A stretch of 62,381 nt of DNA from an uncultured Alphaproteobacteria bacterium (lineage in GTDB: Bacteria > Pseudomonadota > Alphaproteobacteria > CAAGCB01 > CAG-977). A program made the position numbers and the translations under genes. The notes under the pieces are model-generated. The model did no database searches and was not told where the DNA came from. It saw only the letters and a program-made list of their open reading frames with translations. The stretch is from contig CALYBD010000010.1 of assembly GCA_944393745.1 (NCBI GenBank), forward strand, positions 1-62,381, given 5' to 3'. The number at the start of each line of letters is the position of its first letter. Within the stretch, counting starts at the first letter, position 1. This document shows, in pieces, positions 3,354 through 46,570 of the stretch.

Positions 3354-5324
3354 TTGAGCAAAGAAGAAGAAATGAAACAGGCCAAAAAATGGCTGGGCGA
3401 AAATGCCGATGCCGTTGCAAAGTGGGCTGTCGAAATAACGGAAGAGTTAACTCATTCGGGGGCTTTTTATACGAAAGAGGAATTGTATACCGCTTTGACG
3501 GATTCTCTGCCTTTGTTGACCCCCGAACGAACAGGGATACCGGATTTGTCCGCCGTGCCCGAAGGCCGGATCGCCCGACGTATGATTGTTGCCAATACGG
3601 CGGCGGCCGTTATGAAAAATTCTTTGTCCCGCGATTTTGAAACGCCGCAGGGAGTACAGACGCGCTATACAACGGATTCCTTGCTGCAGGCCGAACAGAC
3701 AATTTTTACGCAGGCTGCCGAAATGACCGCAAAACCCACTGACGGCCAGCCGTATGCGGATTTAAACGATATTAAAAAAACCGTTGATCAAATGGCGGAC
3801 GTGATTGTTGTCGGTTCAAATTATACGTTTGATATGCCGGCCGAATATCTGAAGGTTTTTGATGATTTTCTAAAACCGGCAAACCTGCGCATTGCCAACG
3901 GTCCGCCGGGATCGGGAAAATCAACGTTGGCGCAGGGATTGTTGTTTGCTTTGACCAAAGAGGCCATTGAAAACGGACACGAAGTGCCGGATTTTTATGC
4001 TTCCGCTCCGTCCGAAAAAGCTGCGGCAGATATTGTGAACGATATGAATTTAATGAAGCACTTCTGCCTTGCTGGGGGTGCCGAAGAAATTGCGGAACGT
4101 ATGCCCAAAGTAAACGGTGCGGCTTCTTTGGACGAAATGATCGGACAGCTGCAATCCGGGCGGATCAAACCGGGATCCGTTTTGTTGATTGACGAAGCCG
4201 GGTTGATGGGAGCCAAACAGACGGCGGCTTTGCTGACGGCAGCCAATAAACGGGACGTTCGTTTGTTTATGGTGGGGGATAATCTGCAGATCCCGCCCAA
4301 AATGGCGGGAAACGGTTTTGATCAGCTGTTGCAGAATAAAGACGAGCTGGGACTGCAGACTTGTTCGCTTCGGGTTATTCTGCGTCAAAAGACCGAAAAA
4401 GAATCCGATTGGACCATTGATATTCGCGAAGATAATGCCTTAAAGGCGTTGCAAGGATATGCGAACCGCCGTTATACGGGATACTTTTTTACCGAATCGG
4501 GACAACTTACGGTTCGTTGTACGGATCAGGGGCGGGAAGAACGAGGTGATCCCGGCCTGCAGATGCAGGAAGACAAAGAAGCCGTTTATGCCCGTTTGAC
4601 AAAAGATTTTATCCGTTACAGACGCGAATGTCCTGCCGGGTCTTATGTGGTTATGGGAACGGACGAAGAATCGGCCCGAGATCTGAACCTGTATATGCGG
4701 CGCGAAATGATTGCCGACGGTCTGATCAAAAATGTGAAGAATTACGGAACGCCGGATCAACCGTTTGAATTGGGCAAAGGCGATACGCTGATTTTGAACA
4801 GCCCTGTAAAAATGAAGGCTTCGGAACGTGTTGATGTAGAGGAAATACAGGCGGGAACACAGTTGCAGATCGCCGGTGAAAAGGACGGAATGCTGATTGT
4901 GCGCCGCGGGGATCAGTGTTTTGACTGTTCGCCGCAGGCTTTGTGCAAAAATGCGAAATACGGGCTGGCATTACCGCTTTATCAGGCGCAGGGACAGTCA
5001 AAAGATCGCGCTTTTCTGGCCGTGGATAAGGTCGGGTGCATGGACAAAGTTTACGGCGGCGTTGCTTTTTCGCGCCATGTTCGGCAGATGTCGGCGTATG
5101 TGTCAAAACAGGCGTATCCGACGCTTGAGGCACTGGCTTCCGAAATGTCCGTGTTCAGAACGCGCCAGCCTTTGATTTCTGATAAAAACGGGTGTGAAAT
5201 CTTAAAAGAACAGCCCCGCCGGACAGAAGAAAAAGTTGCCGCCGATTTAAAACGGCAGGCCGGATCCGAAAAACCCGCGCCAAAAGATGTTTTATTAAAG
5301 AACAGGCTGATGAAGCTGCGTTAA
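3354..5324 (+). CDS. RecD/TraA-like SF1 helicase or AAA-type ATPase
   Basis: 656 residues. Superfamily 1 motifs are visible in order: Walker A GPPGSGKST near residue 184, Walker B VLLIDEAG near 277, motif III VGDNLQIPP near 307, an Arg-Gln-Lys motif near 344, then YQAQGQSKDRAFLAV and VAFSRH near 545-580. The closest families I can name are RecD2 and the helicase part of TraA/MobA relaxases, but no relaxase histidine cluster is present. The ~170 N-terminal residues are not recognised. The start is taken as TTG at 3354 after a GGGGAA stretch; ATG 3372 is an alternative. Two small genes follow at once, so the three probably form an operon. Its substrate is unknown. Confidence 0.75.
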   Translation: MSKEEEMKQAKKWLGENADAVAKWAVEITEELTHSGAFYTKEELYTALTDSLPLLTPERTGIPDLSAVPEGRIARRMIVANTAAAVMKNSLSRDFETPQGVQTRYTTDSLLQAEQTIFTQAAEMTAKPTDGQPYADLNDIKKTVDQMADVIVVGSNYTFDMPAEYLKVFDDFLKPANLRIANGPPGSGKSTLAQGLLFALTKEAIENGHEVPDFYASAPSEKAAADIVNDMNLMKHFCLAGGAEEIAERMPKVNGAASLDEMIGQLQSGRIKPGSVLLIDEAGLMGAKQTAALLTAANKRDVRLFMVGDNLQIPPKMAGNGFDQLLQNKDELGLQTCSLRVILRQKTEKESDWTIDIREDNALKALQGYANRRYTGYFFTESGQLTVRCTDQGREERGDPGLQMQEDKEAVYARLTKDFIRYRRECPAGSYVVMGTDEESARDLNLYMRREMIADGLIKNVKNYGTPDQPFELGKGDTLILNSPVKMKASERVDVEEIQAGTQLQIAGEKDGMLIVRRGDQCFDCSPQALCKNAKYGLALPLYQAQGQSKDRAFLAVDKVGCMDKVYGGVAFSRHVRQMSAYVSKQAYPTLEALASEMSVFRTRQPLISDKNGCEILKEQPRRTEEKVAADLKRQAGSEKPAPKDVLLKNRLMKLR

Positions 5325-5342: not shown

Positions 5343-5771
5343 ATGTCGGAAGAAAACCGCATTTATAACTTTGGAAAGTATGTTACCTCTTCGGAAGAAA
5401 TTGCCGAAATCTTTTTTTTCCTTAAGCAAATGGAATCGGTGCTGTCTTTTCCGCCAGATGAATCCGTTGATTTTCTGGTAGAAAAGCAAACGGCTGTTTC
5501 GGGGTATGTTTCACGTATTAAAGCTTCTTTGCGTCAATTTATGGAAAAAGCGTACCGGATCGATCCGGATCTGGCGGAAAAAGGAACTTGTGCGGGAAAA
5601 GCAGTCGAAATACTTGACGAAATGAAAAAAATTACGTTTTATTTCCGTGATGCGGCTTTGCAGCTGCCGGCAGAAAAGTTAAAAGATAATCTTTTGCGTG
5701 CCGCGGCTTTGGCAAATCAGTTGCCTGCAGTGATTGCGGCTCTGGACGCCGGCGAAGACGAAATCAAATAA
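5343..5771 (+). CDS. Hypothetical helical protein
   Basis: About 142 residues, not recognised. It is acidic and predicted almost entirely helical, with no signal peptide, membrane segment or cysteine motif; the single Cys is in EKGTCAGKAVE. ATG 5343 is preferred over ATG 5325 because AGGGAA lies about ten bases upstream of it, while 5325 directly abuts the helicase stop codon. The stop overlaps the next ORF's upstream ATG, so translation is probably coupled to both neighbours. The length and composition suggest a small adaptor, which is inference only. Confidence 0.65.
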   Translation: MSEENRIYNFGKYVTSSEEIAEIFFFLKQMESVLSFPPDESVDFLVEKQTAVSGYVSRIKASLRQFMEKAYRIDPDLAEKGTCAGKAVEILDEMKKITFYFRDAALQLPAEKLKDNLLRAAALANQLPAVIAALDAGEDEIK

Positions 5772-5788
5772 TGCCGAAAGAGGTAAGT

Positions 5789-6130
5789 ATGGCCGAAAAA
5801 CAAACAGGACCGGAACAAGAGGGCTTTTACGATATTTTGCAAAACGGGGCGGGAGATCTGCTGATCTCGATTCGTGCGCGCGCCGGTGAACCTGATCACC
5901 CTCAGATTGTTTACGACGGCGGGAAACATGCGTTGCTGTATCGTCAGCACGGTTTTTCCATTACGTTGGATTTTATTCACCCTGATGCTCGGGCGCCGTT
6001 GGCCAAGGCCGAATCCGTCCTGATCGTTGAATTTGAAGGCGGTGAACTGATTCGCGAATATGAAGTCCCTGTCCGTTTTGTTAAAAAACTGCCGTTATCG
6101 CCGGAAAATCTGCCGGCTTTGCCGCAGTAA
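5789..6130 (+). CDS. PDHP-family small protein, copy 1
   Basis: 113 residues of unknown function. It starts at ATG 5789, which has a strong AAAGAGG ribosome binding site; ATG 5771, overlapping the previous stop, is the alternative. It shares one fold-length pattern with the products at 27320 and 38153: YDILQNGAGDLL near the start, then RARAGEPDHP, a [YF]DG turn, a central LD-P segment, a VLIVE strand, and Y-VPVRFVKKLP near the end. It appears to be a compact alpha/beta cytosolic protein with no catalytic motif that I recognise. It ends 50 bases before nuoA. Confidence 0.7.
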   Translation: MAEKQTGPEQEGFYDILQNGAGDLLISIRARAGEPDHPQIVYDGGKHALLYRQHGFSITLDFIHPDARAPLAKAESVLIVEFEGGELIREYEVPVRFVKKLPLSPENLPALPQ

Positions 6131-6179: not shown

Positions 6180-6557
6180 ATGGAAAACGTAACTCACGCT
6201 TATTTTTATTTTTTGATTTTTTTCTTAACGGCTCTGCTGGTCAGCGCGATGATGCTGAAGTTTGCCGCGTATCTGAGCATCAAGCTGTTCGGCCGGCAAA
6301 AAGAGATTGTCAAAAATGACGGCTATGCCGGCGGGTTTTATATCCTTTCCAGCGAAACCAGCCGCTTTCCGTTGCGCTTTGTCTTTATTGCGTTGTTGTT
6401 TGTTTTGTTTACCGCCGAATTTTTGTTGCTGTTGCCTTGGGCAATGTCGTTGCATTTAACGCGGGGACAGGGAATCGTTACGGCCTTGTTGGTCGTTGTG
6501 CTGTGGGGAATCGGTTATTTTTACGAATACAAAAAAGGGGCGCTGGAATGGAAGTAA
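6180..6557 (+). CDS. nuoA: Complex I subunit A (divergent)
   Basis: 125 residues with three membrane segments, first gene of the complex I operon. NuoA packs against NuoH and NuoJ beside the quinone site. The family's YECG loop reads GYAGG (residues 48-52), so its Cys/Glu are missing. In the helix motif FDVE the Asp (E. coli D79) is Thr78 while the Glu is kept as E80, in LFTAEFLLLLPW. The ribosome binding site before ATG 6180 is weak. Identification rests on the operon position plus the LF--E----PW helix. Confidence 0.88.
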   Translation: MENVTHAYFYFLIFFLTALLVSAMMLKFAAYLSIKLFGRQKEIVKNDGYAGGFYILSSETSRFPLRFVFIALLFVLFTAEFLLLLPWAMSLHLTRGQGIVTALLVVVLWGIGYFYEYKKGALEWK

Positions 6558-7012
6558 AACAAGACGGCTGGATCGACAGGCTGCATCAATACGGAGTCGC
6601 CGCGGTGGCTTTTCAGTCTCTGGCTTCTTGGGTATGCGCGCAGGCACAGGCCGGCATGCCTGTTTCGACAGGGTGCTGTTCTTGTTTTTCTCAAATGCAC
6701 CGCGCCGGCATGGAAGGCGTTTTTAATCCCCATCATGCCGATGTGCTGGTTGTCAACGGCGCTTTGAGTACGAAAGCGGCTTTTATCGCACGTCGCCTTT
6801 ATGATCAGATGCCTGCGCCGAAATATGTGATTGCTTTCGGAAATTGTGCCGTGAACGGCGGATTGTTTGCAAAATCCTATGCAATCACTTCTGCCCGGGA
6901 TATTCTGCCGGTCGACGTGTGCGTGCCGGGTTGCCCGCCCGATACGGCCGCTTTGTCCGCCGGTATAGAAAAGTTGCGCCAAATAATCCGAAACAGAATC
7001 AGAGGGAAATAA
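6548..7012 (+). CDS. nuoB: Complex I subunit B, N2 cluster carrier
   Basis: 154 residues. NuoB holds the terminal [4Fe-4S] cluster N2, which passes electrons to quinone. All four ligand positions are present: the tandem pair in STGCCSCF (near residues 43-44), FGNCAVNGG and VPGCPPD. ATG 6548 lies inside the end of nuoA (10-base overlap) and gives the normal family length; the longer upstream reading is out of family. The N-terminal ~40 residues are less conserved. Electron transfer as far as N2 therefore looks intact, in contrast to the degenerate quinone pocket of NuoD and NuoH. Confidence 0.95.
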   Translation: MEVKQDGWIDRLHQYGVAAVAFQSLASWVCAQAQAGMPVSTGCCSCFSQMHRAGMEGVFNPHHADVLVVNGALSTKAAFIARRLYDQMPAPKYVIAFGNCAVNGGLFAKSYAITSARDILPVDVCVPGCPPDTAALSAGIEKLRQIIRNRIRGK

Positions 7013-7013
7013 A

Positions 7014-7595
7014 ATGGCGCTTTCTGTTTATAAAACTCAGGAAGAATTCGGACAGTTTGTTTGTCTGCATTTTGCCAAACAGGATATTCCCGAATGCGGC
7101 GTTGTGTCGGGTATGCTGACTTTGCGTGTTTTGCGTGCCGCTTTGCGCCGTGTGTTACAGTTTTTGCGTGATGATCCGGCGTGCCGTTTTTCTCAGCTGA
7201 CCGATATTTGCTGTACTCACTATCCCGACCGGCAGGAATGTTTTATGCTGACGTATCATCTGTTAAGTCCTTTGATGAACCGCCGATTGCGTCTGGAATT
7301 GACGACCGAAGACGACGTGGCCGTTTTGTCTGCGGCATCGATTTTTTCGAACGCCGTGTGGTATGAACGCGAAATACGGGAAATGTTCGGTGTTTCTTTT
7401 GAAGGTCACCCCGATTTGCGTCGATTGCTGACGCAAGACGAAATCGGCGTTTATCCGTTGCGCAAAACTTTTCCGGCTTGCGGTCGGCAGCATTTAATTT
7501 ACGATGAATCAAAAGAACAGTGCGTTTTTGTACGCCGTTCGGATCAACCGGCCGGTCATTTTTTTGGCGTTGACTTAAATCAGGAAGAAGAATGA
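7014..7595 (+). CDS. nuoC: Complex I subunit C (30 kDa)
   Basis: 193 residues. NuoC is a peripheral-arm structural subunit lying against NuoD. The signature is well preserved: WYEREIREMFGVSFEGHPD followed by LRRLLT and YPLRKTFP near residues 115-150. Good ribosome binding site AGAGGGA before ATG 7014. Its stop overlaps the nuoD start in an ATGA junction, a sign of coupled translation. NuoC and NuoD are separate genes here, as is usual in alphaproteobacteria. Confidence 0.95.
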   Translation: MALSVYKTQEEFGQFVCLHFAKQDIPECGVVSGMLTLRVLRAALRRVLQFLRDDPACRFSQLTDICCTHYPDRQECFMLTYHLLSPLMNRRLRLELTTEDDVAVLSAASIFSNAVWYEREIREMFGVSFEGHPDLRRLLTQDEIGVYPLRKTFPACGRQHLIYDESKEQCVFVRRSDQPAGHFFGVDLNQEEE

Positions 7596-8755
7596 CAACG
7601 TTGCAGGAAAGCTATTTTATGAATATTGCTCCGGAACCGGCGGCGGGGATCGGTATGTGCCGGCTGGTGGCGCAGTTGGACGGGGAAAAAGTCTGCCGAA
7701 TTGATCCGCATATCGGGTTTTCTCATCGCGGTATCGAAAAACTGATGGAAGAGCATAACCTGCTGCAGGGGTTGGTTTTTACGGATAAGTTAAATCGTTC
7801 GGCGCCTTTTTCCTGTGTGCATTCTTTGGTGTTGGCGGCAGAAAAGCTGTTGGGGGTTAAAGCCCCGAAACGAGCCGAATGTATCCGGGTGATACTGGCC
7901 GAAACGGGTCGGATTTTATCGCATTTGCGCGCAACGGCCAATCTGGCGGCAGATACGGGGACGGATATTGTTTATCCGGTTGTGCGCAAAGCCTGTCAGC
8001 AAGCTTATGCTTTACTGGATACCGTATGTGTTTCCTGTCCGCCGGCGGTATTTATCCGCCCGGGCGGAATAAAAAACGATATTGCGCCGCAGTCAAAAGA
8101 ATTGATTTTTAACTGGCTGACAAAAGAACTGCCGCCCGTTTTAATCGAAATTGAAGAACTGTTGACAGAAAACAGGATTTTTAAATCCCGGACCGTCGGC
8201 ATCGGCGTGATCGGGGAACAAGACGCCGTTGCCGCCGGTTTTTCAGGCGTGAATTTGCGGGCTTGCGGCGTTAAGTGGGACTTAAGAATTTCAGAACCGT
8301 ATGAGATTTATGATTCGCTTTCTTTTGATATGCCGGTCAATCCCGAAGGGGATTGTTATGCGCGTTATTTACTGCGCATCTTTGAAATTTATCAGTCAAT
8401 GTCAATCATTCGGCAGATTTTGGAAATGTTGCCCGACGGCGATGTTCTTTTGCCGGATTTTTGCATGGGGGAAAAAGCGGATTCTTTGACAGCACTCAGT
8501 CGCCGTTTTGAACTGTACGGGACGGGAACGGCGCTGTCGGCCGGCGAAGTATATGCCGCAACGGAATCTCCGTTGGGCGAGTTCGGCGTGTTTTTAATTT
8601 CAGACGGTTCCGAAAAACCGTACAGATGTCATTTCCGTTCTGCCGGTTTTCCGGTCATGCAGGCGCTGGATCTGTTGACAAAAGGATATGATTTGGCGGA
8701 TGTGCGGGTTATTTTAAGTTCTTTGAACATTTTGACAACGGAGACAGACCGGTGA
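7592..8755 (+). CDS. nuoD: Complex I subunit D (49 kDa), quinone ligands lost
   Basis: 387 residues, full length. The family framework is clear: DPHIGFSHRGIEKLMEE, LAAEKLLGVKAP, GEVYAATESPLGEFGVFLIS, PYRCHFRSAGF and the terminal TDR. The two residues that hold the quinone headgroup in ordinary complex I (bovine H59 and Y108) are not there. HPAAHG reads PAAGIG (Ile20 at the His position) and DRLDYVS reads DKLNRSA (Arg69 at the Tyr position). The two sites are 49 residues apart, exactly as in the bovine protein. No NiFe hydrogenase cysteines are present either. The stop overlaps the nuoG start, leaving no room for nuoE or nuoF. Confidence 0.93.
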   Translation: MTTLQESYFMNIAPEPAAGIGMCRLVAQLDGEKVCRIDPHIGFSHRGIEKLMEEHNLLQGLVFTDKLNRSAPFSCVHSLVLAAEKLLGVKAPKRAECIRVILAETGRILSHLRATANLAADTGTDIVYPVVRKACQQAYALLDTVCVSCPPAVFIRPGGIKNDIAPQSKELIFNWLTKELPPVLIEIEELLTENRIFKSRTVGIGVIGEQDAVAAGFSGVNLRACGVKWDLRISEPYEIYDSLSFDMPVNPEGDCYARYLLRIFEIYQSMSIIRQILEMLPDGDVLLPDFCMGEKADSLTALSRRFELYGTGTALSAGEVYAATESPLGEFGVFLISDGSEKPYRCHFRSAGFPVMQALDLLTKGYDLADVRVILSSLNILTTETDR

Positions 8756-10707
8756 TCAGTTTATGGATAGACAATAATCCCGTTTTGGCGCAGGAAGGCG
8801 ATTCCGTTTTACAGGCGGCTCTGTCGGCGGGAATTGAGATTGCGCATCTGTGTGATGAAAGCCAATCGGGATCCGAAAACCGGTGCGGTTTATGTCTGGT
8901 TGAAATAGCAGGCAAAGATGATCTTGTCCCGGCGTGCCGTACGTTGGTGGAAGAAGGTATGAAAGTTCTGACCAAAACACCGAAAACAGAAAAAGCTGTT
9001 CGCGCCAGAGCGGCGGAGTTGTTTTCTTCTCATCCCGCCGATTGTGCCACCTGCGTTAAAGCCGGTAATTGCGATATTCAAAAAATATGCGCGCGATATC
9101 GTCCCGAAATTCATTCTGAAAACGTTGTTTGCAAAACACAAAAGCTGTTGGATTGGATAGACGTTACGCCGCAAAAATGCATTCGTTGCGGACGTTGTGC
9201 CGCTTTTTTGAAAAAAGCCGGAATTATTCGGACGGATACGGATGTACCGCCAAAGCATTGCCCGCCGTTTTTATTGTCCGGTACTTTGATTGATTTGTGT
9301 CCTTCGGCAGCTTTGACGGACGCTTTGACATCAAAACTGACGCGGTCGTGGGAAACAATAAAAATCAACAGTATTGACGTAACGGACGCTGTCGGAGCCG
9401 GTATCAAAGTGGAAACGACAAAACAGCATGAAATTGTCCGCATCAGCCCTGCGCCGGGTTGCCTGATTTCGGATAAAGCGCGTTTTTGTTCGGACGGGCT
9501 GCACATTAATCGTCTGGACAGGCCTTATGCGCGGATTAACGGACGACTGAAAGAATGTTCGTGGACGGAAGCTTTTGTGACGATTGCTTCAAAAATAAAA
9601 GAGACGGCGCCTGAAAAAACAGCGGCTTTGATCGGTGATTTTGCCGATTGCGAAAGTATGTTGGCTTTGAAAGATTTGTTTGCGTTGATCGGCGCCAAAG
9701 CTATTGATGCCCGTACGGACAGCCAGATGTATTTGGATTTAAACAGCCGTCAGTCCCGTTTGTTCAATACACCGTTTTCGCGGATTAAAGACGCCGACTT
9801 TTTATTAAGCGTCGGCGCACGGATCAGTGATTTGGCGCCGGCTGTCGGCTGGCAACTGCGTCAGAATAAAATGCCGAAAGCTTTTGTCGGATTGAACGAA
9901 GAGGCCGATTTGCCCTATGAAGTTCTGGGGGCAACACCGCAGGTGTTAAAGGATATATTAAACGGATCCGGGATCGGAGCCGTGATGTTAAAACGCGCCC
10001 GAAAGCCGATGATTGTCGTCGGTCCGTCCGTGTTGCGGCGCAATGATGCCGCGGCCGTAATGGATCTGATCTGTCGGATTTGCGCAAAATATGATGTAAT
10101 CCGCAGCGATTGGAACGGATATAATTTTTTAAGTCAAAAAACGACTTTGATCGGCGCGGCCGAATTAGGGATGATTACTGCCGAACCGTTGCGGCCGAAA
10201 ATTGAAAAAGGAGACTTTGATTTCGTTTATCTGTTAAACGAAGATACCGTTTCGCGTTCTCAATCGGGGAATGCCTTTACGGTATATCAGGGGGTTTATG
10301 CGTCCCGGGCCGCACAGGACGCCGATGTGATTTTACCGGGACTGGCCTTCAGCGAGAAAAAAGCGACTTACGTTAATGCCGAAGGACGGGCGCAAAGTAC
10401 GGCAGTTGTTTCTCCGCCTTTCGGCATGGCGCGCGAAGACTGGAAAATTTTGCGGGCTTTGTCCGAATATCTGGGGACGGCGCCGCTGCCGTATGACGAT
10501 CTGGAGGATATCCGCGATTATCTGGCGGGGGAAAACGTTATCTTCTATAACCGCGGGGAAATTACCGCCGCGGACAATGTTTCCTTCGGAACACCCGGAG
10601 AAACGGAAGAAACACCGTTTTACGCCCGTGACGATATCTTTGATGACGAATTGTGCCGTCAATCGGAATATGCGGTCGTGTTGAAAAAAGGGTTGTTATC
10701 GAAATGA
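8752..10707 (+). CDS. nuoG: Complex I subunit G (75 kDa), Fe-S and molybdopterin-fold subunit
   Basis: 651 residues, GTG start in a GTGA overlap with nuoD. Fe-S ligands are complete for the proximal chain: a [2Fe-2S] set C-x10-C-x2-C-x13-C near residues 34-63, the H-x3-C-x2-C-x5-C set HPADCATCVKAGNC near 98-111, and CIRCGRC with a later LCP Cys for N4. The rest is the molybdopterin-oxidoreductase fold, truncated compared with E. coli NuoG. No N7 motif was seen. With nuoE and nuoF absent, this subunit is the most exposed electron entry point. A soluble ferredoxin or flavodoxin donor is a reasonable inference. Confidence 0.93.
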   Translation: MISLWIDNNPVLAQEGDSVLQAALSAGIEIAHLCDESQSGSENRCGLCLVEIAGKDDLVPACRTLVEEGMKVLTKTPKTEKAVRARAAELFSSHPADCATCVKAGNCDIQKICARYRPEIHSENVVCKTQKLLDWIDVTPQKCIRCGRCAAFLKKAGIIRTDTDVPPKHCPPFLLSGTLIDLCPSAALTDALTSKLTRSWETIKINSIDVTDAVGAGIKVETTKQHEIVRISPAPGCLISDKARFCSDGLHINRLDRPYARINGRLKECSWTEAFVTIASKIKETAPEKTAALIGDFADCESMLALKDLFALIGAKAIDARTDSQMYLDLNSRQSRLFNTPFSRIKDADFLLSVGARISDLAPAVGWQLRQNKMPKAFVGLNEEADLPYEVLGATPQVLKDILNGSGIGAVMLKRARKPMIVVGPSVLRRNDAAAVMDLICRICAKYDVIRSDWNGYNFLSQKTTLIGAAELGMITAEPLRPKIEKGDFDFVYLLNEDTVSRSQSGNAFTVYQGVYASRAAQDADVILPGLAFSEKKATYVNAEGRAQSTAVVSPPFGMAREDWKILRALSEYLGTAPLPYDDLEDIRDYLAGENVIFYNRGEITAADNVSFGTPGETEETPFYARDDIFDDELCRQSEYAVVLKKGLLSK

Positions 10708-11714
10708 ACGATTTTTTTGCCTCTTTGATGGAAAATGAAATCACGCCCTTTTTACACGAGCTGTTGCCGGCCGGCGGTATGATGCTGCGTGCCTGTTTAT
10801 ATTGCGTTGTTATTTTGGCCGCGGCGTTCTGTGTGTTCTGGGGAAAAGAAAAAATACGTGCCGGAATAGAAATGCGTCCCGGAAAATCGGCTCTCAGTCT
10901 TTTACGCCGGATTTGCTCTACGGCATTAAAGATTCCGGCCGTTCCCGATCCGGCTCAAAAAGTGTTGTTTGTTGCGGCGCCTTTGTTTGCCTTTGTCTTT
11001 TCGTTGTTTTTCTTTTTCTTTCTGCCGGTGAACAAAGGGTATTTTCTGCACCCCGATTTCAGTTTGCTTTATTTGTTGTTTGCCGCGTCCTGCGGAACGT
11101 ATGCTTTTATTGCCGGCGGGTGGAGCAGTACGACGCGTTTCAGTTTTTTCGCAGCCGTGCGCATGATCGCCCAGTCTTTATGCTGCCAGTCGGTTCTGGC
11201 TGTTGTCGTGATGACAATCCTGATGACGGCCGGAGCGCCGGATCTGTATTCCGTCATCAAAGCGCAAAGAAAAATATGGTTTGTCGTGCCGCATTTCCCG
11301 CTGTTTATTTTATATATGCTGTCGGTGGCAATGCTGTTGGGACTGGCACCGTTTAAAGGGCCGAAATCCGAAAGAGAACTGGCCGGCGGTATTTATGCGG
11401 AATACGGTGGCAGTCTGTATTTATTGTTTATTGCCGGTGAAAATATTTTGCTGTTGTTGTGTGCGGCACTGGGCAGTGTTTTGTTCTTGGGCGGGACGAT
11501 ACCGTTAGTTGGAACGGCAGTCTTGCCGGCATTTGTCTGGTTGTTGTTAAAGACGGGATTGCTGGTCTTTGTTTTCATTTTGATGGATTGCACTTTGCCG
11601 TGTTACCGGACGGATCGGCTGATGAATGTGTGTTTTAAGGTTTTTTTGCCGTTTGCTTTGGTGTGGTTGGCGGTTACGGCGGGATACCTGTATTTGTTGC
11701 AAACGGGAGGATAA
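10704..11714 (+). CDS. nuoH: Complex I subunit H (ND1-like), divergent
   Basis: 336 residues with about eight membrane helices, starting at ATG 10704 in an ATGA overlap with nuoG. Recognisable landmarks are AGGWSSTTRFSFFAAVRMIAQ, a degenerate PF-GP-SE-ELAGG loop, AEYGG and the C-terminal LKTG helix. Compared with E. coli NuoH, the SYE glutamate (E157) is Gln in SLCCQSVL. PFDLPEAE reads PFKGPKSE, turning D213 and E216 into Lys. The GPNRVGP loop is lost. These residues line the quinone chamber and the start of the proton path, so that function is doubtful. Confidence 0.9.
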   Translation: MNDFFASLMENEITPFLHELLPAGGMMLRACLYCVVILAAAFCVFWGKEKIRAGIEMRPGKSALSLLRRICSTALKIPAVPDPAQKVLFVAAPLFAFVFSLFFFFFLPVNKGYFLHPDFSLLYLLFAASCGTYAFIAGGWSSTTRFSFFAAVRMIAQSLCCQSVLAVVVMTILMTAGAPDLYSVIKAQRKIWFVVPHFPLFILYMLSVAMLLGLAPFKGPKSERELAGGIYAEYGGSLYLLFIAGENILLLLCAALGSVLFLGGTIPLVGTAVLPAFVWLLLKTGLLVFVFILMDCTLPCYRTDRLMNVCFKVFLPFALVWLAVTAGYLYLLQTGG

Positions 11715-12062
11715 ATGAACATGAAAAAAATTCATTTTACTCTTTTTGCGGATATTTTACGCAGTTTGCTGGTTGCTTTTCGTTATGTCGTCGGCTTGGG
11801 TGCCGGACAAAAAATAAAAGTCGAGGAAGAACCGAAGCCGGGATATCCTGATGTTGATGCCGAAAAGTGCATCGGGTGCAAACTTTGCGCAAAAATATGT
11901 CCGTCGCAGGCAATAGAAGTGGAAACGTTTGTACAAAACGATCGCAATCCGATCGAGTTCAGATGGATCGGCGAACGCTGTGTTGCTTGCGGTTTGTGCG
12001 TTGAATCCTGTCCTCGAAAGGCATTGCGGATTAAAAAGGAAAAGACAAATGTACGCGGTTGA
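11715..12062 (+). CDS. nuoI: Complex I subunit I, 2[4Fe-4S] ferredoxin-type
   Basis: 115 residues, shorter than the usual ~160 because the N-terminal extension is reduced. NuoI carries clusters N6a and N6b between NuoG and NuoB. Both motifs are complete: CIGCKLCAKICPSQAIEVE near residues 53-71 and CVACGLCVESCPRKAL near 93-108. Strong ribosome binding site GGAGG right before ATG 11715. The nuoJ start lies within its last codons. Confidence 0.95.
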   Translation: MNMKKIHFTLFADILRSLLVAFRYVVGLGAGQKIKVEEEPKPGYPDVDAEKCIGCKLCAKICPSQAIEVETFVQNDRNPIEFRWIGERCVACGLCVESCPRKALRIKKEKTNVRG

Positions 12063-12543
12063 GTTTTATGTTTTTGCCGTTTTGGTTCTTTCGGCGGCAT
12101 TTTTGTCGGTCAGTGTCCGGCATATTTTGTATGCGGTTTTCTGCCAGATGCAGGCAATTGTTGCCGTGGCCGGTATTTTGGCGGGACTGAACGCCAAATT
12201 TGTCAGTTTTGCTTTGTTGTCCATGTCGGCGGCATCAATGCTGGTTTTTTTGATTTTTGCTTTGATTGTTTTTGATTTTCGCCGAACGCAGGAATTTGTT
12301 CCCGAAAAAGCTTCTGCGGTTTCGCTGGTGTTTTTTGTTTTGCTGTGTTTGCAGACGGTGTACCTGTTTTTTAAACCGCAGTGGCCGAACGAAGAAATTG
12401 CTCCTGTTTTTTCTTTGCCGGTGTTGGGCGATATTCTGTATGCCGATTACGGTATATGCGTTTTGATTTTTGCAGCCTTGGTCTTGTCGTGCATGGTGGG
12501 TCTGTCGGCTTTGTTGGTCGGGAAAAAAGTACAGGAAGGATAA
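12049..12543 (+). CDS. nuoJ: Complex I subunit J
   Basis: 164 residues with five hydrophobic helices. The start ATG 12049 overlaps the end of nuoI by 14 bases and follows an AAGGA site. Identification is by operon position, size and the start EFYVFAVLVLSAAFLSV, which resembles NuoJ. NuoJ forms part of the junction between the quinone site and the antiporter-like modules. Sequence conservation is low, like the other membrane subunits here. Confidence 0.85.
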   Translation: MYAVEFYVFAVLVLSAAFLSVSVRHILYAVFCQMQAIVAVAGILAGLNAKFVSFALLSMSAASMLVFLIFALIVFDFRRTQEFVPEKASAVSLVFFVLLCLQTVYLFFKPQWPNEEIAPVFSLPVLGDILYADYGICVLIFAALVLSCMVGLSALLVGKKVQEG

Positions 12544-12549
12544 GACGTT

Positions 12550-12858
12550 ATGACAATCAACATTCCCGTTATCCTGACGGTCAGTTCGTTTCTGGTTTTT
12601 TTCGGCTTGTGGGGCGTTTTGCGTCATCGAAGCGATTTGATGCGGGTATTGTTGGCTTTACAGCTGATTTTTTTGGGATCGTTATTTAATTTTTCGATGG
12701 GAAGCGCTTTGTTCTATGAACCTTCCGGGTTGATTTTTTCTTTGTTCATGGCTTGTCTGAGCGGTGTGCAGATCGTTGTGTCGCTGGCATTGTTTTTACT
12801 TTATTTTAAAAAACACAATCATCTGACGATAGATCGTGTCGATACGATGAAAGGGTAG
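12550..12858 (+). CDS. nuoK: Complex I subunit K without its two membrane glutamates
   Basis: 102 residues with three membrane helices, normal NuoK length. The C-terminus IDRVDTMKG and the GLWGVL-R-R start match the family. The two intramembrane glutamates known to be needed for pumping (E. coli E36 and E72) are both glutamine: Q38 in LLALQLIFLG and Q74 in SGVQIVVSLAL. The spacing of 36 residues is identical to E36-E72, which supports the alignment. Helices 2 and 3 contain no acidic residue at all. Confidence 0.92.
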   Translation: MTINIPVILTVSSFLVFFGLWGVLRHRSDLMRVLLALQLIFLGSLFNFSMGSALFYEPSGLIFSLFMACLSGVQIVVSLALFLLYFKKHNHLTIDRVDTMKG

Positions 12859-12865
12859 GCGGAAA

Positions 12866-14689
12866 ATGGTTTTTGCTGTTCTTTTGCCTTTTTTTGCCGC
12901 GTGTTATGTTTTTGCGGCGGCTTTTTTAAAAAAGCGGACGTTTGCCTGGGAAATAGGAACCGCGGCGACCGGTCTGGCTTTTTTAAACATTGTTTCCATG
13001 GCGTTTAAAAATTTTGTTCACGGACAGGTTTACAGCGTTTTGCTGCTGCCCTTTTTAACGTTGGACGGAAAGACGTATGACTGGAGAGTGCATTTGGAAA
13101 CAACCGAAATATTTTTGGTCGTTTTTATCGTTTTTTCCGCTTTGATGTGTTTGTTGTTTGCCAAAGATTTTCTGCAACCCGAAAAAATGAACAGCTTTGT
13201 TGTTTTTTTACTGGGATTGACGTCTTTTTTGATTATTGTGATCGGCGCCAAAAATATGTTCCAGTTTTTTGTCGGCTGGGATTTGTCGGTTTTGTTTGCC
13301 TATTTATTGTTGATGCTGTTTCATGAAAAGCAGGCCGTGCGCCGATCCGGCGTGAATTTTCTGATCTGGCATACACTAAGCGACGTGCCGCTGTTTTGTG
13401 CGTTTTATATGCTGGCCGGCAAAACGGACGGTTTCTTTGTGGCTTCTTTTACGGCGGATTCCTTTTTGGCTTTTCAGGGAACGGAAACGGTTGTTTTTGC
13501 CGTTTTGATTTTGTTAAGCGTTTCTGCAAAATTGTTTTTGTTCGGCACGAATATTCTGATTGCGCAAACGGCCGGCATTTCCGTTCCGGCTTTGGCTTTT
13601 ATTGCGCCTGCCGCGTTGGGAGGACTGGGCGTTTATGTGTTGTATCTGTTCTTTCCGTTTGTGGACGACAATCAGACGGTGCGAACGATTTTTACGGTTT
13701 GGGGAATATTGACGGCACTGGGCGGATTGATGACGGCGTCGGCGCAGACAAATATCAAGGTTTTGCTTTGCCAGTTGCTGATGGGGCAGTTCGGTTTTGT
13801 TTTAACGGTTTTCGGCCTGATTGACCGAGACACGGCTTTTTGTGCTTATATTGCTTTGATTACGCCGATGACGGGGTTGATTTTATGCGCCGGTACGGTT
13901 ATTCAGGCACTGCAGGGAGAAGAAGAATTGCCGCGCATGGGAGGCCTGAAAAAATATCTGCCGTTTTCATTTTGGCCGATGCTGTTGTTTTCCGTATGTT
14001 GTGTCGGTTTTCCGCAAATCGGCAATTCTGCGGTTATTTTGGATATGTATGCCGTTTTAAAGGCTCGTTCTTTACCGGCGGGCAGTTTTTTCCTGACAGT
14101 GTATTTGTTTGCTTTGGCGTTTGTTTTTGCGCGGTTGTTGTTTCGGATTTTTTTGGCGGAAGAAAAATTTTCCGCTACAACGGCGGCCAGGATTTGTCGG
14201 CCGTCAAAAATTGAATCGCTGCCGTTGATGGTATTGCTGCTGTTGTCTTTTTTTCAGAATAAAGTTTTTGAACAATCCGTTTTGCCGAATTTGACGGGAG
14301 CCCTGTCGATCGGCGTTTTGGTGTCTTTACTGGCGGGGGGTTGCGGTTTGCCTGTCGGAATTTACTGTTTTTCCAAAGCGGAAAAAGCAGGCGGATTTCG
14401 TTTGTCCGGGGGGATTTTTCAAAAAATCGCTCATTTTTGTCAGAAAGGGTTTTATTTAACCGATTTTTATCAGGCTGTTTTTGTGCGCCCGTTTATGGCG
14501 CTGGCGGATTTTGCCTGGCGTTTTGCCGGCGCGGAGCTGCTGACGGAAAAATTACCGCGGGCATTAAAGAAAACAGCCGAAAATCTGCAAAAAACCCATT
14601 CGGGAAAGCCGTCTGATTTTCTGTTGTGGTCTTTGGCGGGACTGTTTGTTTTAATTTTTTCGCTGTTGCCGTTGTTGGCGGGAGAATGA
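12866..14689 (+). CDS. nuoL: Complex I subunit L, antiporter-like, degenerate
   Basis: 607 residues, many membrane helices, full NuoL length including the C-terminal part. The frame is seen in FFVGWDLSVLFAYLL (E. coli E144 as Asp), VSAKLFLFG (K229 kept), QTNIKVLLCQLLMGQFGF and PRMGGLKKYLPF. Lost features include the WLPDAM-GPTPVSALIHA block (here ISVPALAFIAPA, no His) and the H-x-x-x-H/K342 helix. The GFFSKDEIL lysine K399 is also gone, in a stretch reading FPQIGNSAVILDMY. The proton channel is therefore unlikely to work as in E. coli. Confidence 0.9.
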   Translation: MVFAVLLPFFAACYVFAAAFLKKRTFAWEIGTAATGLAFLNIVSMAFKNFVHGQVYSVLLLPFLTLDGKTYDWRVHLETTEIFLVVFIVFSALMCLLFAKDFLQPEKMNSFVVFLLGLTSFLIIVIGAKNMFQFFVGWDLSVLFAYLLLMLFHEKQAVRRSGVNFLIWHTLSDVPLFCAFYMLAGKTDGFFVASFTADSFLAFQGTETVVFAVLILLSVSAKLFLFGTNILIAQTAGISVPALAFIAPAALGGLGVYVLYLFFPFVDDNQTVRTIFTVWGILTALGGLMTASAQTNIKVLLCQLLMGQFGFVLTVFGLIDRDTAFCAYIALITPMTGLILCAGTVIQALQGEEELPRMGGLKKYLPFSFWPMLLFSVCCVGFPQIGNSAVILDMYAVLKARSLPAGSFFLTVYLFALAFVFARLLFRIFLAEEKFSATTAARICRPSKIESLPLMVLLLLSFFQNKVFEQSVLPNLTGALSIGVLVSLLAGGCGLPVGIYCFSKAEKAGGFRLSGGIFQKIAHFCQKGFYLTDFYQAVFVRPFMALADFAWRFAGAELLTEKLPRALKKTAENLQKTHSGKPSDFLLWSLAGLFVLIFSLLPLLAGE

Positions 14690-14692
14690 ACC

Positions 14693-16135
14693 GTGACATA
14701 TTATTCCTTACCTTCCGTTGTTTTGTTCTTACCGCTGCTGGGGGCTTTGTTTTTGCTGTTTATCCGCGGGGACGAACAAATTGTTTTTCAAAACAGCCGT
14801 CATGTTGCTTTGCTGATCACGGCGTGTGTGTTTATTTTGTCTTTTGTGTCATTTCTTTTTTATGAAGCCGATCCCGAAAAGTATTTAACACAGGCTTTTA
14901 CGCATTCGGTTCAGACCGATTGGCGCGTCGGCATTGATGCGCTGAGCATGATTTTTGTTTTATTGATTTCTTTTTTAACGGTATTGTCCGTTTGTGTCAT
15001 CAGGCGCCATGTGTCGTTTTGCGTCAGAGAGTTTTCTTTTCTGGTTTTAACGGCGGAAAGCTTTATGTTGATTGCCGTTTGTTCGCAAAATATGTTTCAA
15101 TTTTTTGTTTTTTGGGAAGCAGCGGTTCTGCCGTTATTTTTAATGACGGCAGTCTGGGGGGCGGAAAAGCGTATTTTTACGGCCTATAAGTTCTGCTTTT
15201 CGGATCTTTTGGGAGCAATTTGTTTAATGCCGGCGTTGTTTTTGCTTGCACAAAAAGCCGGATCTGCCGATTATGCCGCTTTGGCGCGGCTGAAACCGGA
15301 CGAAACAGAACAGACAGTTTTGTTGATTTGCTTTCTGGCGGCTTTGGCCTTTAAAGCGCCGTTGTTTCCTTTTCATGCCTGGTTAAGCGACACACAGGCC
15401 GAAGCGCCGGTGCCGACGGGAATTTTATTGTGCGGCATTTTTTCAAAATTAATTTTTTATGCTTTTTTGCGTCTGGCTCTGCCCGCATTGGAAAGCGTGC
15501 CGGATACATGGCGTTTGTTGTTGTTGATCTGGGCTGCTTTTTCGGCCGTTTACGGAGCACTGATTACGTTAAAACAAGTGGAAATAAAAAAAATCGCCGG
15601 TTTTGCTCATCTGGCTCAAGTCGGTTTTCTGGGCGCAGGCTTGTTTTGTGCGGCTCCGGCAACATTGCAAAGTCTGTTGTTTTTATGCGTGGCGCAAGGA
15701 TTGGCTTTTACGGTTTATTTAATGTCGGCAGGGGCTTTGTACGCGCGTTTCAATGATGCCGGCATGAAAGAACCGACCGGATTGATGAAATTATTCCCGT
15801 ATCTGGGAATGACTTTTTTCTTGTCGTGTCTGGCTGTTTTGGGCGTTCCGCCGTTAATGCCGTTTACGGGACAGTTTCTGATTTTTTATGACGTGTTCGG
15901 GCAATCAAAAATTGTGGCGTTTTTCCTGCTGTTGTCGGTTGTTTTGTTGTATTCGGCTTTTTTCAGGCTGTTTACGCGACTGCTGTTCGGAGAACCGCCC
16001 CAACAAAGTGCGGGGCTTCCGGATATGAGCTGGCGGGAAAAAACGGCGGCAATTGTGTTCGGATCTGTCTTTTTGATTTTGTCTGTTACGCCCGGGATCG
16101 TTTTTGATTTGGCCCGTCAGGCAATCGGCGGATAA
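14693..16135 (+). CDS. nuoM: Complex I subunit M, antiporter-like
   Basis: 480 residues, GTG start three bases after nuoL. NuoM is the middle antiporter-like module. Kept: E144 in FFVFWEAAVLPLFLM, K234 in LAFKAPLFPFHAWLSD and K265 in GIFSKLIFYAFLR. Changed: the terminal acidic residue of the channel, E. coli E407 in GEFMIL, is Gln in PFTGQFLIFYD, and the AHGLSAAGLF histidine is Gln in AQGLAFTVYL. It is thus closer to the canonical sequence than NuoL but lacks the exit carboxylate. Confidence 0.93.
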   Translation: MTYYSLPSVVLFLPLLGALFLLFIRGDEQIVFQNSRHVALLITACVFILSFVSFLFYEADPEKYLTQAFTHSVQTDWRVGIDALSMIFVLLISFLTVLSVCVIRRHVSFCVREFSFLVLTAESFMLIAVCSQNMFQFFVFWEAAVLPLFLMTAVWGAEKRIFTAYKFCFSDLLGAICLMPALFLLAQKAGSADYAALARLKPDETEQTVLLICFLAALAFKAPLFPFHAWLSDTQAEAPVPTGILLCGIFSKLIFYAFLRLALPALESVPDTWRLLLLIWAAFSAVYGALITLKQVEIKKIAGFAHLAQVGFLGAGLFCAAPATLQSLLFLCVAQGLAFTVYLMSAGALYARFNDAGMKEPTGLMKLFPYLGMTFFLSCLAVLGVPPLMPFTGQFLIFYDVFGQSKIVAFFLLLSVVLLYSAFFRLFTRLLFGEPPQQSAGLPDMSWREKTAAIVFGSVFLILSVTPGIVFDLARQAIGG

Positions 16136-16147
16136 AGGAAAATAAAA

Positions 16148-17578
16148 ATGAATGAAGCATTAAAAAGTATATTGCCCGTCGTACCGGAAATTCTGCTTTT
16201 GTTCTTTGCCGTTCTTTCTTTGCCGGCCGGTTTGTATGCGCCGGCGTCGAAATCAAAATCAATGGCAGACAGGTTTGTTTACGCGGGATTATTGTCGGCC
16301 TTTGGCGCATTGTGCCTGATTGATGTGCCGGCCGAAGGACTGTTTTCGGTTTTTCCCGGGGTGGGGCTGGACAGGTTTTCCTTATGGATGAAAAAAATTT
16401 TGCTGATCGGTGCCGTAATTGCATTGGCTTTTGGTGCGGATTGGTTGAAATATAAAAAGTATTCGCGTTTTGAATACGCTCCGCTGTTGGCTTTTTGCGT
16501 GACAGGCATGATGCTGACGGTTTCCGCACAAACATTTTTGGTGCAGTTCCTCGGGCTGGAAATGATGCATTTTCCGTTATTGTTTCTGACGGCCTATAAA
16601 CGCCAGGGCGAACGATCGACCGAGGCCGGAACAAAATACGTTGTGATGGTTTTTTTAAGTTCCGGATTATATTTGTTCGGCGTTTCTGTTTTATACGCTT
16701 GTCTGGGAACGTTGGATTTTGCCAAATTGGCGGCGACCGACAAACAGGAAATTATGCCGGCATTGCTGTGGGGACTGTCGTTTGTGACGGCGGGGCTTTT
16801 GCTGAAAATCGGTGCGGCGCCGTTTCATTCGTGGGCTGCCGATGTATACGAAGGGGCGCCTTCACCGGTGACGGCTTTGTTTGCCATGATGGTTCGTCTG
16901 CCCGTTCTTGCCGCCTTGGCTGAGATTGTTTCGAAACCTTTCGGCGATCTGGATTTTTATTGGCGTCCCGTTTTGGGCACAGCTGCCGTTTTGTCTGTTT
17001 ATATCGGCGGATTCGGTGCGATCGTACAAACAAACATTAAACGTCTGACAGCCTATACGGTAATTGTGTTAAACGGCTTTGCTTTGTCGGCGTTGGTTGT
17101 GAAAAGTACGGTATTATTATTGTTTTTAATGACAATTGATCTGATTTTGTTGGCGGGATTGTCTGCCGTTGTTTTATCGTTGCGCATCGGTGACGAGCTC
17201 AGTGAAGAAATTCGCGTTTTATTCGGACAGGGACAGACAAAGCCTTTGCGCGGCGGATTGTTTTCGTTGATTTTTTTGGGGTTGGCCGGCGCGCCGCCGT
17301 TTGCCGGATTTTGGACGCGTTTCGGATTGTTCAAAGACACGGCGGTTAACGGCATGATACCTTTATGTATTTTTCTGATGTTGGGCGGGTTGTTGATTAT
17401 GTATGTTTATTTAAAAATCATCCGTCAGATGTATATGGTTTCGGCCAGAGAAGATCTGTCTTTTGCGCCGATGCCGATGAAAGCCGTTATAACGGCTGCA
17501 GCGGTTGTTTCCGTTTTTTCTTTTGCAGCGGCGGAACCGTTGCTGAGCATTATGCAAACGGCCGGAATGCTTTTTTAG
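16148..17578 (+). CDS. nuoN: Complex I subunit N, antiporter-like
   Basis: 476 residues, last complex I gene. The best conserved of the three large membrane subunits: QFLGLEMMHFPLFLLTAY keeps the E133-type glutamate, and LKIGAAPFHSWAADVYEGAP keeps K217. The two other channel lysines are replaced by Arg: K247 in MMVRLPVLAAL and K395 in FAGFWTRFGLFKD. Charge is thus retained here, unlike in NuoK, NuoH and NuoM. birA follows after nine bases, the usual alphaproteobacterial order. Confidence 0.94.
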   Translation: MNEALKSILPVVPEILLLFFAVLSLPAGLYAPASKSKSMADRFVYAGLLSAFGALCLIDVPAEGLFSVFPGVGLDRFSLWMKKILLIGAVIALAFGADWLKYKKYSRFEYAPLLAFCVTGMMLTVSAQTFLVQFLGLEMMHFPLLFLTAYKRQGERSTEAGTKYVVMVFLSSGLYLFGVSVLYACLGTLDFAKLAATDKQEIMPALLWGLSFVTAGLLLKIGAAPFHSWAADVYEGAPSPVTALFAMMVRLPVLAALAEIVSKPFGDLDFYWRPVLGTAAVLSVYIGGFGAIVQTNIKRLTAYTVIVLNGFALSALVVKSTVLLLFLMTIDLILLAGLSAVVLSLRIGDELSEEIRVLFGQGQTKPLRGGLFSLIFLGLAGAPPFAGFWTRFGLFKDTAVNGMIPLCIFLMLGGLLIMYVYLKIIRQMYMVSAREDLSFAPMPMKAVITAAAVVSVFSFAAAEPLLSIMQTAGMLF

Positions 17579-42662: not shown

Positions 42663-44734
<2,072 letters not shown>

Positions 44735-44738
44735 TTTT

Positions 44739-45194
44739 ATGGATCTGAACACTTCTAAAAAAGTCCAGACAAAAATGGAAAACGATCTGGCGGAAAAACT
44801 GGCAAAGCGCGCGTCCCGTCATCTGGTGAACAAGACGGACAAAAAGGCTTTTAAACCGGCCAAAGGTCTGGCTTTTTTGGGGGCACTGGGCTGGAATATT
44901 CCGATCCCGACTTTTTTGGGGGTCTTGTTGGGGCGATGGTGTGACACGCATTATAAAGTGGCTTCCGTTTCCTGGACGTTGAACTTTTTGTTGCTGGGGA
45001 TGCTGCTGGGGGCTTTCAGTGCCTGGCTGTGGCTGAAACGCGAAGGGATAGATCATGCCCAAAAAGAACAAAATCGGCGGAACCTGCTGGTGGAACAGGC
45101 ACAGGCCGAATCTTTGTCCGAAGGGGAAACTTTGTCGGACGATGCAGCCGAAATGACCGATAAAGAAGAAAATAACGAAGAGGAGAGCGAATAA
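44739..45194 (+). CDS. atpQ: N-type ATPase accessory protein AtpQ
   Basis: 151 residues with two membrane helices: PIPTFLGVLLGRWCD and WTLNFLLLGMLLGAFSAWLW. A charged N-terminus and an acidic tail lie in the cytoplasm. It resembles the AtpI/AtpZ type proteins and takes the AtpQ position between atpC and atpR that is specific to N-ATPase operons. Probably helps assemble the c ring or bring in cations; role not settled. Confidence 0.8.
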   Translation: MDLNTSKKVQTKMENDLAEKLAKRASRHLVNKTDKKAFKPAKGLAFLGALGWNIPIPTFLGVLLGRWCDTHYKVASVSWTLNFLLLGMLLGAFSAWLWLKREGIDHAQKEQNRRNLLVEQAQAESLSEGETLSDDAAEMTDKEENNEEESE

Positions 45195-45511
45195 TGACGG
45201 AATGGATGCCTTTGTCCATTGCAACGGGTTTGGCTGCGGGCGCTTTGATGGGCGGCTTGTATTTCGGCGGGCTGTGGTGGTCCGTTTTGAAAATTAAAAC
45301 GGTCGAACGCAAAAAATTGTTTTTGTTTTTCAGCTGGCTGTTTCGATGCGTTTTTTTGTGCGGCGGGTTGTTTTTTCTGGCCAATCATGATTCTCAGATG
45401 TTGTTGGGCGCTGCCGTCGGTCTGCTGAGTGTCAGATTTGTCATCGTTTACCAAGTGAAACGTAAAATTCCGCAAAAAATAAAACAAGAGGAGAAAGCGG
45501 CATGGATTTAG
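45194..45511 (+). CDS. atpR: N-type ATPase accessory protein AtpR
   Basis: 105 residues, three membrane helices, starting on the last base of atpQ's stop. The pattern GALMGGLYFGGLWWSV, an R in the second helix and GLLSVRFVIVYQVKR is that of AtpR, a small membrane protein found only in N-ATPase operons. It overlaps the start of atpB. Its presence is the most diagnostic marker for the N-type classification. Confidence 0.85.
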   Translation: MTEWMPLSIATGLAAGALMGGLYFGGLWWSVLKIKTVERKKLFLFFSWLFRCVFLCGGLFFLANHDSQMLLGAAVGLLSVRFVIVYQVKRKIPQKIKQEEKAAWI

Positions 45512-46230
45512 AATTGTATGATGAAGAAATTGCTTTTTATTTGCCGTATTTCAATATACCGATTAACTGGACGATTGCGTCAACGTGGATTGTGATGGCC
45601 TTTTTAATGTTAGTTTCCTGGTTGGCGACCCGACATTTGAAGACGAGTAACAAAGTGTCACATTGGCAGACGGGAATGGAAGTTTTGGTTAAGGCTATTT
45701 ACGGTCAGATTCATGAAATGACGACCGGTAATCCGATGACATACCTGCCGTTTGTCGGAACGTTGTTTATTTTTATTCTGACGTGCAATCTGTTTACGCT
45801 GATTCCGGAATTCAAATCACCGACGGCTTCTTTGTCAACGACAGTGGCTTTGGCTTTTTTAGTGTTGCTGGGGATTCCGTTTTTCGGCATTAAAAATGCG
45901 GGGTTGAAAAAGTATCTGAAAAAGTATCTGCAACCGTCTCCGGCAATGCTGCCGTTTAATATTTTAAGCGAATTGACCTCAACGGGGGCAATGGCCGTCC
46001 GTTTGTTCGGCAATGTCTTGTCCGGCGTGATCATCGGATCGATTTGTTTTATGCTGGTCCCGGTTATTCTGCCTTTGCCGATGCAGATATTGGGGCTTTT
46101 TACAGGAATGATTCAGGCTTATATTTTTGCGATGCTGGCGCTGATGTATATTTCTTCCGTACATGAAGAAGACGAAACGCCGCCCCTTTTGTCGGAAGAA
46201 AAACAAGCCGAAACAGACGAAACTTTATAA
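45502..46230 (+). CDS. atpB: N-type ATPase subunit a
   Basis: 242 residues, stator membrane subunit providing the ion half-channels. The essential Arg is in TGAMAVRLFGNVLSGVI near residue 172. A conserved Glu/Gln-rich helix reads GLFTGMIQAYIFAMLALMYI near the end. The length is normal. It overlaps atpR by ten bases. Confidence 0.94.
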   Translation: MDLELYDEEIAFYLPYFNIPINWTIASTWIVMAFLMLVSWLATRHLKTSNKVSHWQTGMEVLVKAIYGQIHEMTTGNPMTYLPFVGTLFIFILTCNLFTLIPEFKSPTASLSTTVALAFLVLLGIPFFGIKNAGLKKYLKKYLQPSPAMLPFNILSELTSTGAMAVRLFGNVLSGVIIGSICFMLVPVILPLPMQILGLFTGMIQAYIFAMLALMYISSVHEEDETPPLLSEEKQAETDETL

Positions 46231-46251
46231 AAAAAACAGGAGGACTGTATT

Positions 46252-46530: not shown

Positions 46531-46570
46531 AAAAATTTCAGCCTTCACTCAACGGATAAGGATTTGAAAT

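Follow-up and report, generated by a model that had tools for sequence, protein, structure and literature searches.

The window, i.e. the whole stretch of DNA that was analysed, is a single contig of 62,381 bases (G000:C10). It belongs to a genome of 2.25 Mb, which is 99% complete and of which 2,246,388 of 2,248,531 bases (99.9%) were read. An operon of complex I genes in the order nuoA-B-C-D-G-H-I-J-K-L-M-N, with nuoD inside, occupies positions 6180-17578 of the plus strand. The genes nuoE and nuoF, normally located between nuoD and nuoG, are absent from it.

nuoA, 6180..6557, plus strand: E51 replaced by Ala and D79 by Thr (E. coli numbering; alignment with 75 references)
nuoB, 6548..7012, plus strand: ATG start within a longer open reading frame; four N2 cysteines present; loop after the Cys pair shorter by about 8 residues
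nuoC, 7014..7595, plus strand: match to PF00329 (E 5e-36)
nuoD, 7592..8755, plus strand: 387 amino acids; I20 and R69 replace the quinone-headgroup His and Tyr; His of the PQHP motif replaced by Pro16
nuoG, 8752..10707, plus strand: ligands of N1b, N5 and N4 present
nuoH, 10704..11714, plus strand: E157Q, D213K and E216K (alignment with 67 references)
nuoI, 11715..12062, plus strand: all eight of the eight cluster cysteines present
nuoJ, 12049..12543, plus strand: ATG start within a longer open reading frame; Y59 replaced by Ser
nuoK, 12550..12858, plus strand: channel glutamates E36 and E72 both replaced by Gln; Glu at both positions in 62 of 62 references
nuoL, 12866..14689, plus strand: K229 present, K399 lost
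nuoM, 14693..16135, plus strand: E144, K234 and K265 present; E407 replaced by Gln
nuoN, 16148..17578, plus strand: E133 and K217 present; K247 and K395 replaced by Arg

The family to which the genome belongs is represented in our collection by 12 genomes, 11 of which carry nuo genes; G002 lacks the whole operon. Wherever the DNA read extends far enough in the 11 nuo-bearing genomes, the cluster is flanked by glgP on one side and by birA/rnj on the other.

MAFFT alignments matched I20 of the window NuoD with bovine H59 (T. thermophilus H38), and R69, 49 residues away, with bovine Y108 (T. thermophilus Y87). Placement was identical in phmmer alignments to the Paracoccus and mitochondrial 49-kDa subunits of known structure, and in alignments with other alphaproteobacteria and E. 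coli the two residues likewise occupied the His and Tyr columns. Among 100 reference NuoDs the His column contains His in 99 and a gap in the remaining one, and the Tyr column contains Tyr in all 100. The assignment of Ile20 and Arg69 to the positions of the headgroup-binding pair, made in a first-pass annotation of this DNA, was thus borne out. In the family the His is lost in all 11 nuo-bearing genomes and the Tyr in ten, being retained only in G008, and Pro replaces a further His of this loop (PQ-H-P) in 11 of 11. Since these changes are seen again and again across 11 genomes, with NuoDs that share 33-80% identity with the window NuoD and retain 77% of the conserved NuoD columns, chance can be excluded. 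The fold of the predicted NuoD monomer is intact (pLDDT 87.9), and the PDB structures that match it best are 49-kDa subunits of complex I; the prediction informs on the fold only and not on the NuoB/NuoD/NuoH cavity, and residues 1-20, including I20, have pLDDT values below 50. No report of this complex I variant was found in the literature collection that was searched.

The other two subunits that line the quinone cavity are also changed. Alignment confirmed the replacement of both NuoH loop acids (D213 and E216, E. coli numbering) by Lys in the window. Of nine NuoH sequences of the family, eight have Lys in place of E216, and D213 is variable. In NuoB the adjacent Cys pair is retained in 9 of 10 family sequences, with a shorter loop after the pair. 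The cavity subunits have in this way gained an Arg (NuoD) and Lys (NuoH) and lost part of a loop (NuoB). All four N2 cysteines of NuoB, which the annotation had noted as kept, are indeed present, and together with the eight cysteines of NuoI they make up the ligands of N6a, N6b and N2 of complex I. Across the family 111 of 112 of these cysteines are found (72/72 in NuoI, 39/40 in NuoB).

According to recent work on E. coli complex I, the proton route leads from NuoH E157 through NuoA D79 to NuoK E36/E72 (PMC13324432). Among 62-75 references these positions vary little or not at all; in the window they are Q, T, Q and Q, respectively, so that the E-channel carboxylates of complex I are missing. 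The family shows the same pattern: NuoH E157 is replaced by Gln (one Leu), NuoA D79 mostly by Asn, Thr or Ser, NuoK E36 by Gln (one Ser, one His) and NuoK E72 by Gln (one Tyr). NuoA E51 and NuoJ Y59 are likewise lost. The antiporter-type residues NuoN E133/K217 and NuoM E144/K234 are mostly retained. The share of conserved columns retained is 85% in NuoI, 75% in NuoN, 65% in NuoB, 60% in NuoA, 56% in NuoM, 49% in NuoH, 41% in NuoK and 26% in NuoJ, which places the heaviest loss around the E-channel. Ion pumping, if any, cannot rely on the standard E-channel glutamates.

The only NuoE and NuoF homologues encoded in the window's genome are HydC and HydB on contig C6, i.e. the NuoEF module of complex I was not found. 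A NuoF gene hidden elsewhere in this genome was rejected on the same ground, HydB being the only match. In a survey in which contig ends truncate the nuo clusters of G004 and G006, nuoE and nuoF were absent from the nuo-bearing members of the window's genus and from G007 and G011. G010 lacks E, F and G (11 subunits, by its own loss), and G009 lacks E, F, G and L. G008 retains nuoE and nuoF; its NuoF is devoid of the glycine-rich FMN/NADH motif and its NuoG has lost N1b ligands, and the N3 cysteines stay. G008 branches as the sister of all other family members in the NuoD tree, and the family, G013 (a member of another alphaproteobacterial family) and 20 other alphaproteobacteria are separated from the 80 remaining references with 100% SH-aLRT support. 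An ancestral or laterally acquired 11-subunit complex was rejected, because G008 still has nuoE and nuoF and because NuoD groups with alphaproteobacteria. Judged from the tree and the gene content, the simplest history would be the stepwise reduction of an ordinary alphaproteobacterial 14-subunit complex I, rather than survival of an ancient relic. The annotation was right about the quinone site, but it underestimated the extent of the change, because the loss of nuoE/nuoF and the neutralisation of the E-channel had escaped it; with these included, the alteration goes beyond an exchange of the quinone site.

The operon appears to be maintained under purifying selection and not to be decaying. 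Nei-Gojobori dN/dS values in ten comparisons of nuoB, C, D, G, H, K and M were between 0.046 and 0.173, although they are rough because dS is high (1.4-3). NuoK gave 0.046 despite both Glu changes. Several positions carry the same replacement across the family: NuoD H40P, NuoH E216K and E157Q, NuoK E72Q, NuoA E51A and NuoB A62G. No internal stop codon was found in NuoD in the 11 genomes, and the frames of the cluster genes read are open. An assembly artefact or a pseudogene was rejected in view of the dN/dS values and of the same locus occurring in 11 genomes.

The annotation had suggested that a search for quinone biosynthesis genes could reveal whether the acceptor is a normal quinone. Such a search of the window's genome yielded no convincing ubi or men pathway. 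E. coli UbiA, C, D, E, H, I and B and MenC, F and H used as queries found no match in this genome, and its few MenB, MenD, MenE and UbiG matches look like superfamily matches. PF01040, the family of UbiA, MenA and MqnP, was positive in 14 of 14 control genomes. Of the 12 family genomes, six had matches, all adjoining hisH/hisF, and 5-6, all nuo-bearing, had no match. Three scanned matches fitted decaprenyl-phosphate phosphoribosyltransferase models best (just under the curated cut-offs). Quinone synthesis through the one UbiA-like protein of the window's genome was rejected, since this protein is decaprenyl-phosphate phosphoribosyltransferase-like and adjoins hisH/hisF. Together with the family-wide loss of the site, the missing genes largely support the earlier suggestion that the acceptor may not be a normal quinone.

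In the window's genome the E. coli queries for bd and bo3 oxidases (CydA, CyoB/C/E), for the reductases of fumarate (FrdA/B/C), nitrate (NarG/I) and DMSO (DmsA/C) and for Rnf (RsxD/E) gave no match, and Pfam searches of the 12 family genomes agree on the absence of cytochrome bd and Rnf/Nqr. The window's genome encodes PFOR, AdhE, HydABC and further [FeFe] hydrogenases. Its four [FeFe]-hydrogenase-type genes are found at G000:C6:6781-11236, C31:17361-18044 and C32:9099-13427, and include the HydC-HydB-HydA operon; HydB is absent from G002, the sole relative without nuo. G010 carries a fumarate-reductase-like flavoprotein. Dihydroorotate dehydrogenase (PF01180) was above cut-off in only 2 of the 12 family genomes, as short partial matches, which suggests pyrimidine auxotrophy.

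With alphaproteobacterial complex I (NDH-1, 14 subunits) the window complex shares gene order, subunit homology, the Fe-S ligands of NuoG, NuoI and NuoB, the NuoD fold and the position in the tree, but it lacks NuoE/NuoF, the headgroup pair and the E-channel carboxylates, and its genome lacks quinone genes. On these features it is complex I by descent but does not qualify as an NADH:quinone oxidoreductase. An 11-subunit complex I-like enzyme without the NADH-oxidising subunits feeds menaquinone in Desulfitobacterium hafniense (PMC11238625). The 11-subunit enzymes of D. hafniense and Dehalococcoides resemble the window complex in the absence of these subunits, and ferredoxin or PFOR has been proposed as their donor; G010 has arrived at the same set of 11 subunits. 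They differ in that NuoG is retained in the window's genus and the quinone site is lost, whereas the Dehalococcoidia references keep the His, the Tyr and the E-channel acids.

Another related system is MBS, the membrane-bound sulfane sulfur reductase of Pyrococcus furiosus, which has no quinone His/Tyr, receives electrons from ferredoxin and reduces polysulfide at its N2-equivalent cluster (PMC7684303). Membership in the complex I superfamily, the missing His/Tyr pair, an altered Cys-motif region in the N2-bearing subunit and a fermentative setting with ferredoxin are common to both. MBS, unlike the window complex, retains two NiFe-site cysteines and has a charged axis and an Mrp-like distal module, and the N2 ligands of the window complex, unlike those of MBS, include the adjacent Cys pair of complex I. 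In MBS a shortened Cys motif leaves one iron of the proximal cluster without a cysteine ligand; in the family's NuoB it is the loop behind the Cys pair that is shorter. As the charged axis is kept in MBS and neutralised here, the analogy is limited to the redox end. Shared descent with archaeal Mbs/Mbh was not found: NuoD groups with alphaproteobacterial complex I, and its best fold matches are complex I 49-kDa subunits. A Group 4 [NiFe] hydrogenase (Ech/Mbh/Hyc), the large subunit of which has two pairs of NiFe-ligating cysteines, was also rejected; the window NuoD lacks CxxC, its C-terminal end reads TTETDR, and it scores far better as NuoD than as hydrogenase. Two gut alphaproteobacteria, Azospirillum CAG:239 and Acetobacter CAG:977, have been described with the same metabolic type, comprising HydABC, a second [FeFe] hydrogenase and PFOR; the accessible text of that report describes neither quinone-site or E-channel changes nor an absence of quinone (PMC4967309). 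They possibly belong to the same broad group as the window family.

Both substrate sites are lost from a complex of alphaproteobacterial descent that, as far as the sequences tell, keeps its Fe-S ligands under purifying selection, and quinone genes are absent from the genome. We consider it likely that the complex is redox-active, and favour, with moderate confidence, a quinone-independent complex I derivative of a fermentative, quinone-less family, probably fed by ferredoxin and passing electrons from N2 to a non-quinone acceptor. That G002 does without the operon counts against this reading. Because NuoEF is gone and the window's genus keeps the ligands of NuoG, NuoI and NuoB, the electrons most likely come from a soluble low-potential donor. 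Ferredoxin reduced by PFOR would be the best candidate, followed by the HydBC flavoprotein, and either would deliver electrons to NuoG/NuoI. The electrons would run via N6a and N6b to N2, and would most likely still leave at N2, in the remodelled NuoB/NuoD/NuoH cavity. Since this cavity has lost the His, the Tyr and part of the NuoB loop and has gained Arg and Lys, and since MBS offers a precedent, our leading guess is a small anionic acceptor, which might be reduced much as polysulfide is by MBS. Whether redox chemistry still drives ion translocation we regard as an even chance.

We give quinone very little chance of being the physiological acceptor. Gut habitats are rich in bacterial menaquinone, and one relative apparently comes from the sheep rumen; a quinone scavenged from gut bacteria (menaquinone or a tail-less naphthoquinone, e.g. 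DHNA) might still be reduced through the modified site, and the fumarate-reductase-like flavoprotein of G010 would fit such a use. This is nevertheless highly improbable, because every reference checked retains the His and Tyr, irrespective of the quinone it uses, and the NuoB loop is deleted. Moreover, no quinol-consuming enzyme was detected in the window's genome, leaving no obvious sink even for a scavenged quinone. The retention of most NuoN E133/K217 and NuoM E144/K234 residues next to a neutralised redox-pump relay could also mean that the redox part is idle and the operon is kept for its antiporter-like subunits, working as an Mrp-type cation/proton antiporter with Fe-S clusters of structural role only; the Na+-type-looking N-ATPase of the family makes sodium traffic plausible. 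We consider this unlikely: NuoI, the carrier of two clusters, retains the largest share of conserved columns (85%) and 72/72 ligands, and G009, which has no NuoL and a NuoM of 313 amino acids, has all NuoB and NuoI ligands.

Slow decay of a complex without a function worth mentioning would agree with the serial loss of E/F, then G, then L, with the disappearance of the whole operon from G002, with the missing glycine-rich FMN/NADH motif of the G008 NuoF and with the faster divergence of Nuo subunits than of their neighbours, e.g. glgP. Values of dN/dS of 0.05-0.17, the absence of stops in NuoD of 11 genomes and several replacements that are fixed and not random make decay very unlikely. Under the favoured reading of a redox-active, quinone-independent derivative, the complex could tentatively represent a second, independent origin, within the complex I superfamily, of an enzyme that uses N2 itself as the catalytic site for a soluble acceptor other than quinone; any redox energy it conserves would get to the antiporters without the E-channel carboxylates, which are regarded as essential. 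We hold this view with more doubt than belief.

The main unsolved problem of complex I is how the reduction of quinone powers proton pumps far away from it. In this family quinone, headgroup ligands and E-channel acids have been removed naturally from a complex seemingly under purifying selection, and intermediates with about 14, 12, 11 and 10 subunits are preserved there, so that comparison can test what these residues do. The complex also suggests that H2-producing bacteria of gut and rumen use an electron acceptor not recognised so far, and shows how the composition of complex I can move back towards that of its hydrogenase-like relatives.

The DNA of 42 genomes was screened for a pattern encoding P[Q/N]HPxxHG. 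At the NuoD locus the motif was present in 13 of 13 non-family genomes (9 families) that had the NuoD start and a UbiA-family match above cut-off, and in 5 of 5 further control genomes. It was absent from all family members and from nine genomes of f3, f22, f25, f70 and f92, none of which had a UbiA-family match above cut-off. Three UbiA-positive genomes were left out of the scoring: G086 and G264 (truncated NuoD) and G180 (distant homologue only). Besides G013 (f3), the motif-less genomes are G032 and G163 (f22), G035, G166, G263 and G341 (f25), G080 (f70) and G102 (f92). With only ~30% identity, the NuoD matches of f25, f70 and f92 might be paralogues; the cases of f3, where G013 was read directly, and of f22 are firmer. 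With the count restricted to secure families, three lack and nine have the motif, a perfect split expected by chance in 1/220, in a sample chosen for low similarity, with incomplete genomes (G013 81%), families that are not independent and UbiA-family matches that can be heme O synthase. Quinone site and quinone synthesis may have been lost jointly in further alphaproteobacterial families, most clearly in f3/G013 and f22. Dehalococcoides mccartyi, described as respiring without quinones (PMC6005880), retains all quinone-site and E-channel residues, hence lack of quinone is not always followed by remodelling of the site. The nuo locus of G013 (L047 1-6834) reads nuoABCDHJKLM, without E, F, G and I; its NuoD lacks the His and the Tyr-bearing stretch, and NuoK E36/E72 and NuoH E157 are retained. 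G013 represents a possible second route to quinone-site loss.

Some further features of the window were recorded. Directly upstream of nuoA lies an open reading frame of 119 amino acids (5771-6130) with no Pfam match, which is 86-97% identical in 10 of 10 relatives reached by DNA; the nuo genes are far less conserved. Between glgP and nuoA there is a TraI/AAA_30-type helicase-like gene (3354-5324, ~656 amino acids), which some relatives share; in others it is missing or shows 31-38% identity. Contig C6 encodes a standard F-ATPase that has delta. The window carries a second F-type ATPase operon (42846-49814) in the order beta-epsilon-(two small membrane proteins)-a-c-b-alpha-gamma, without delta, as in N-ATPases. 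Its c subunit (46252-46530) reads AIIETSGIY and resembles Na+-type c subunits.
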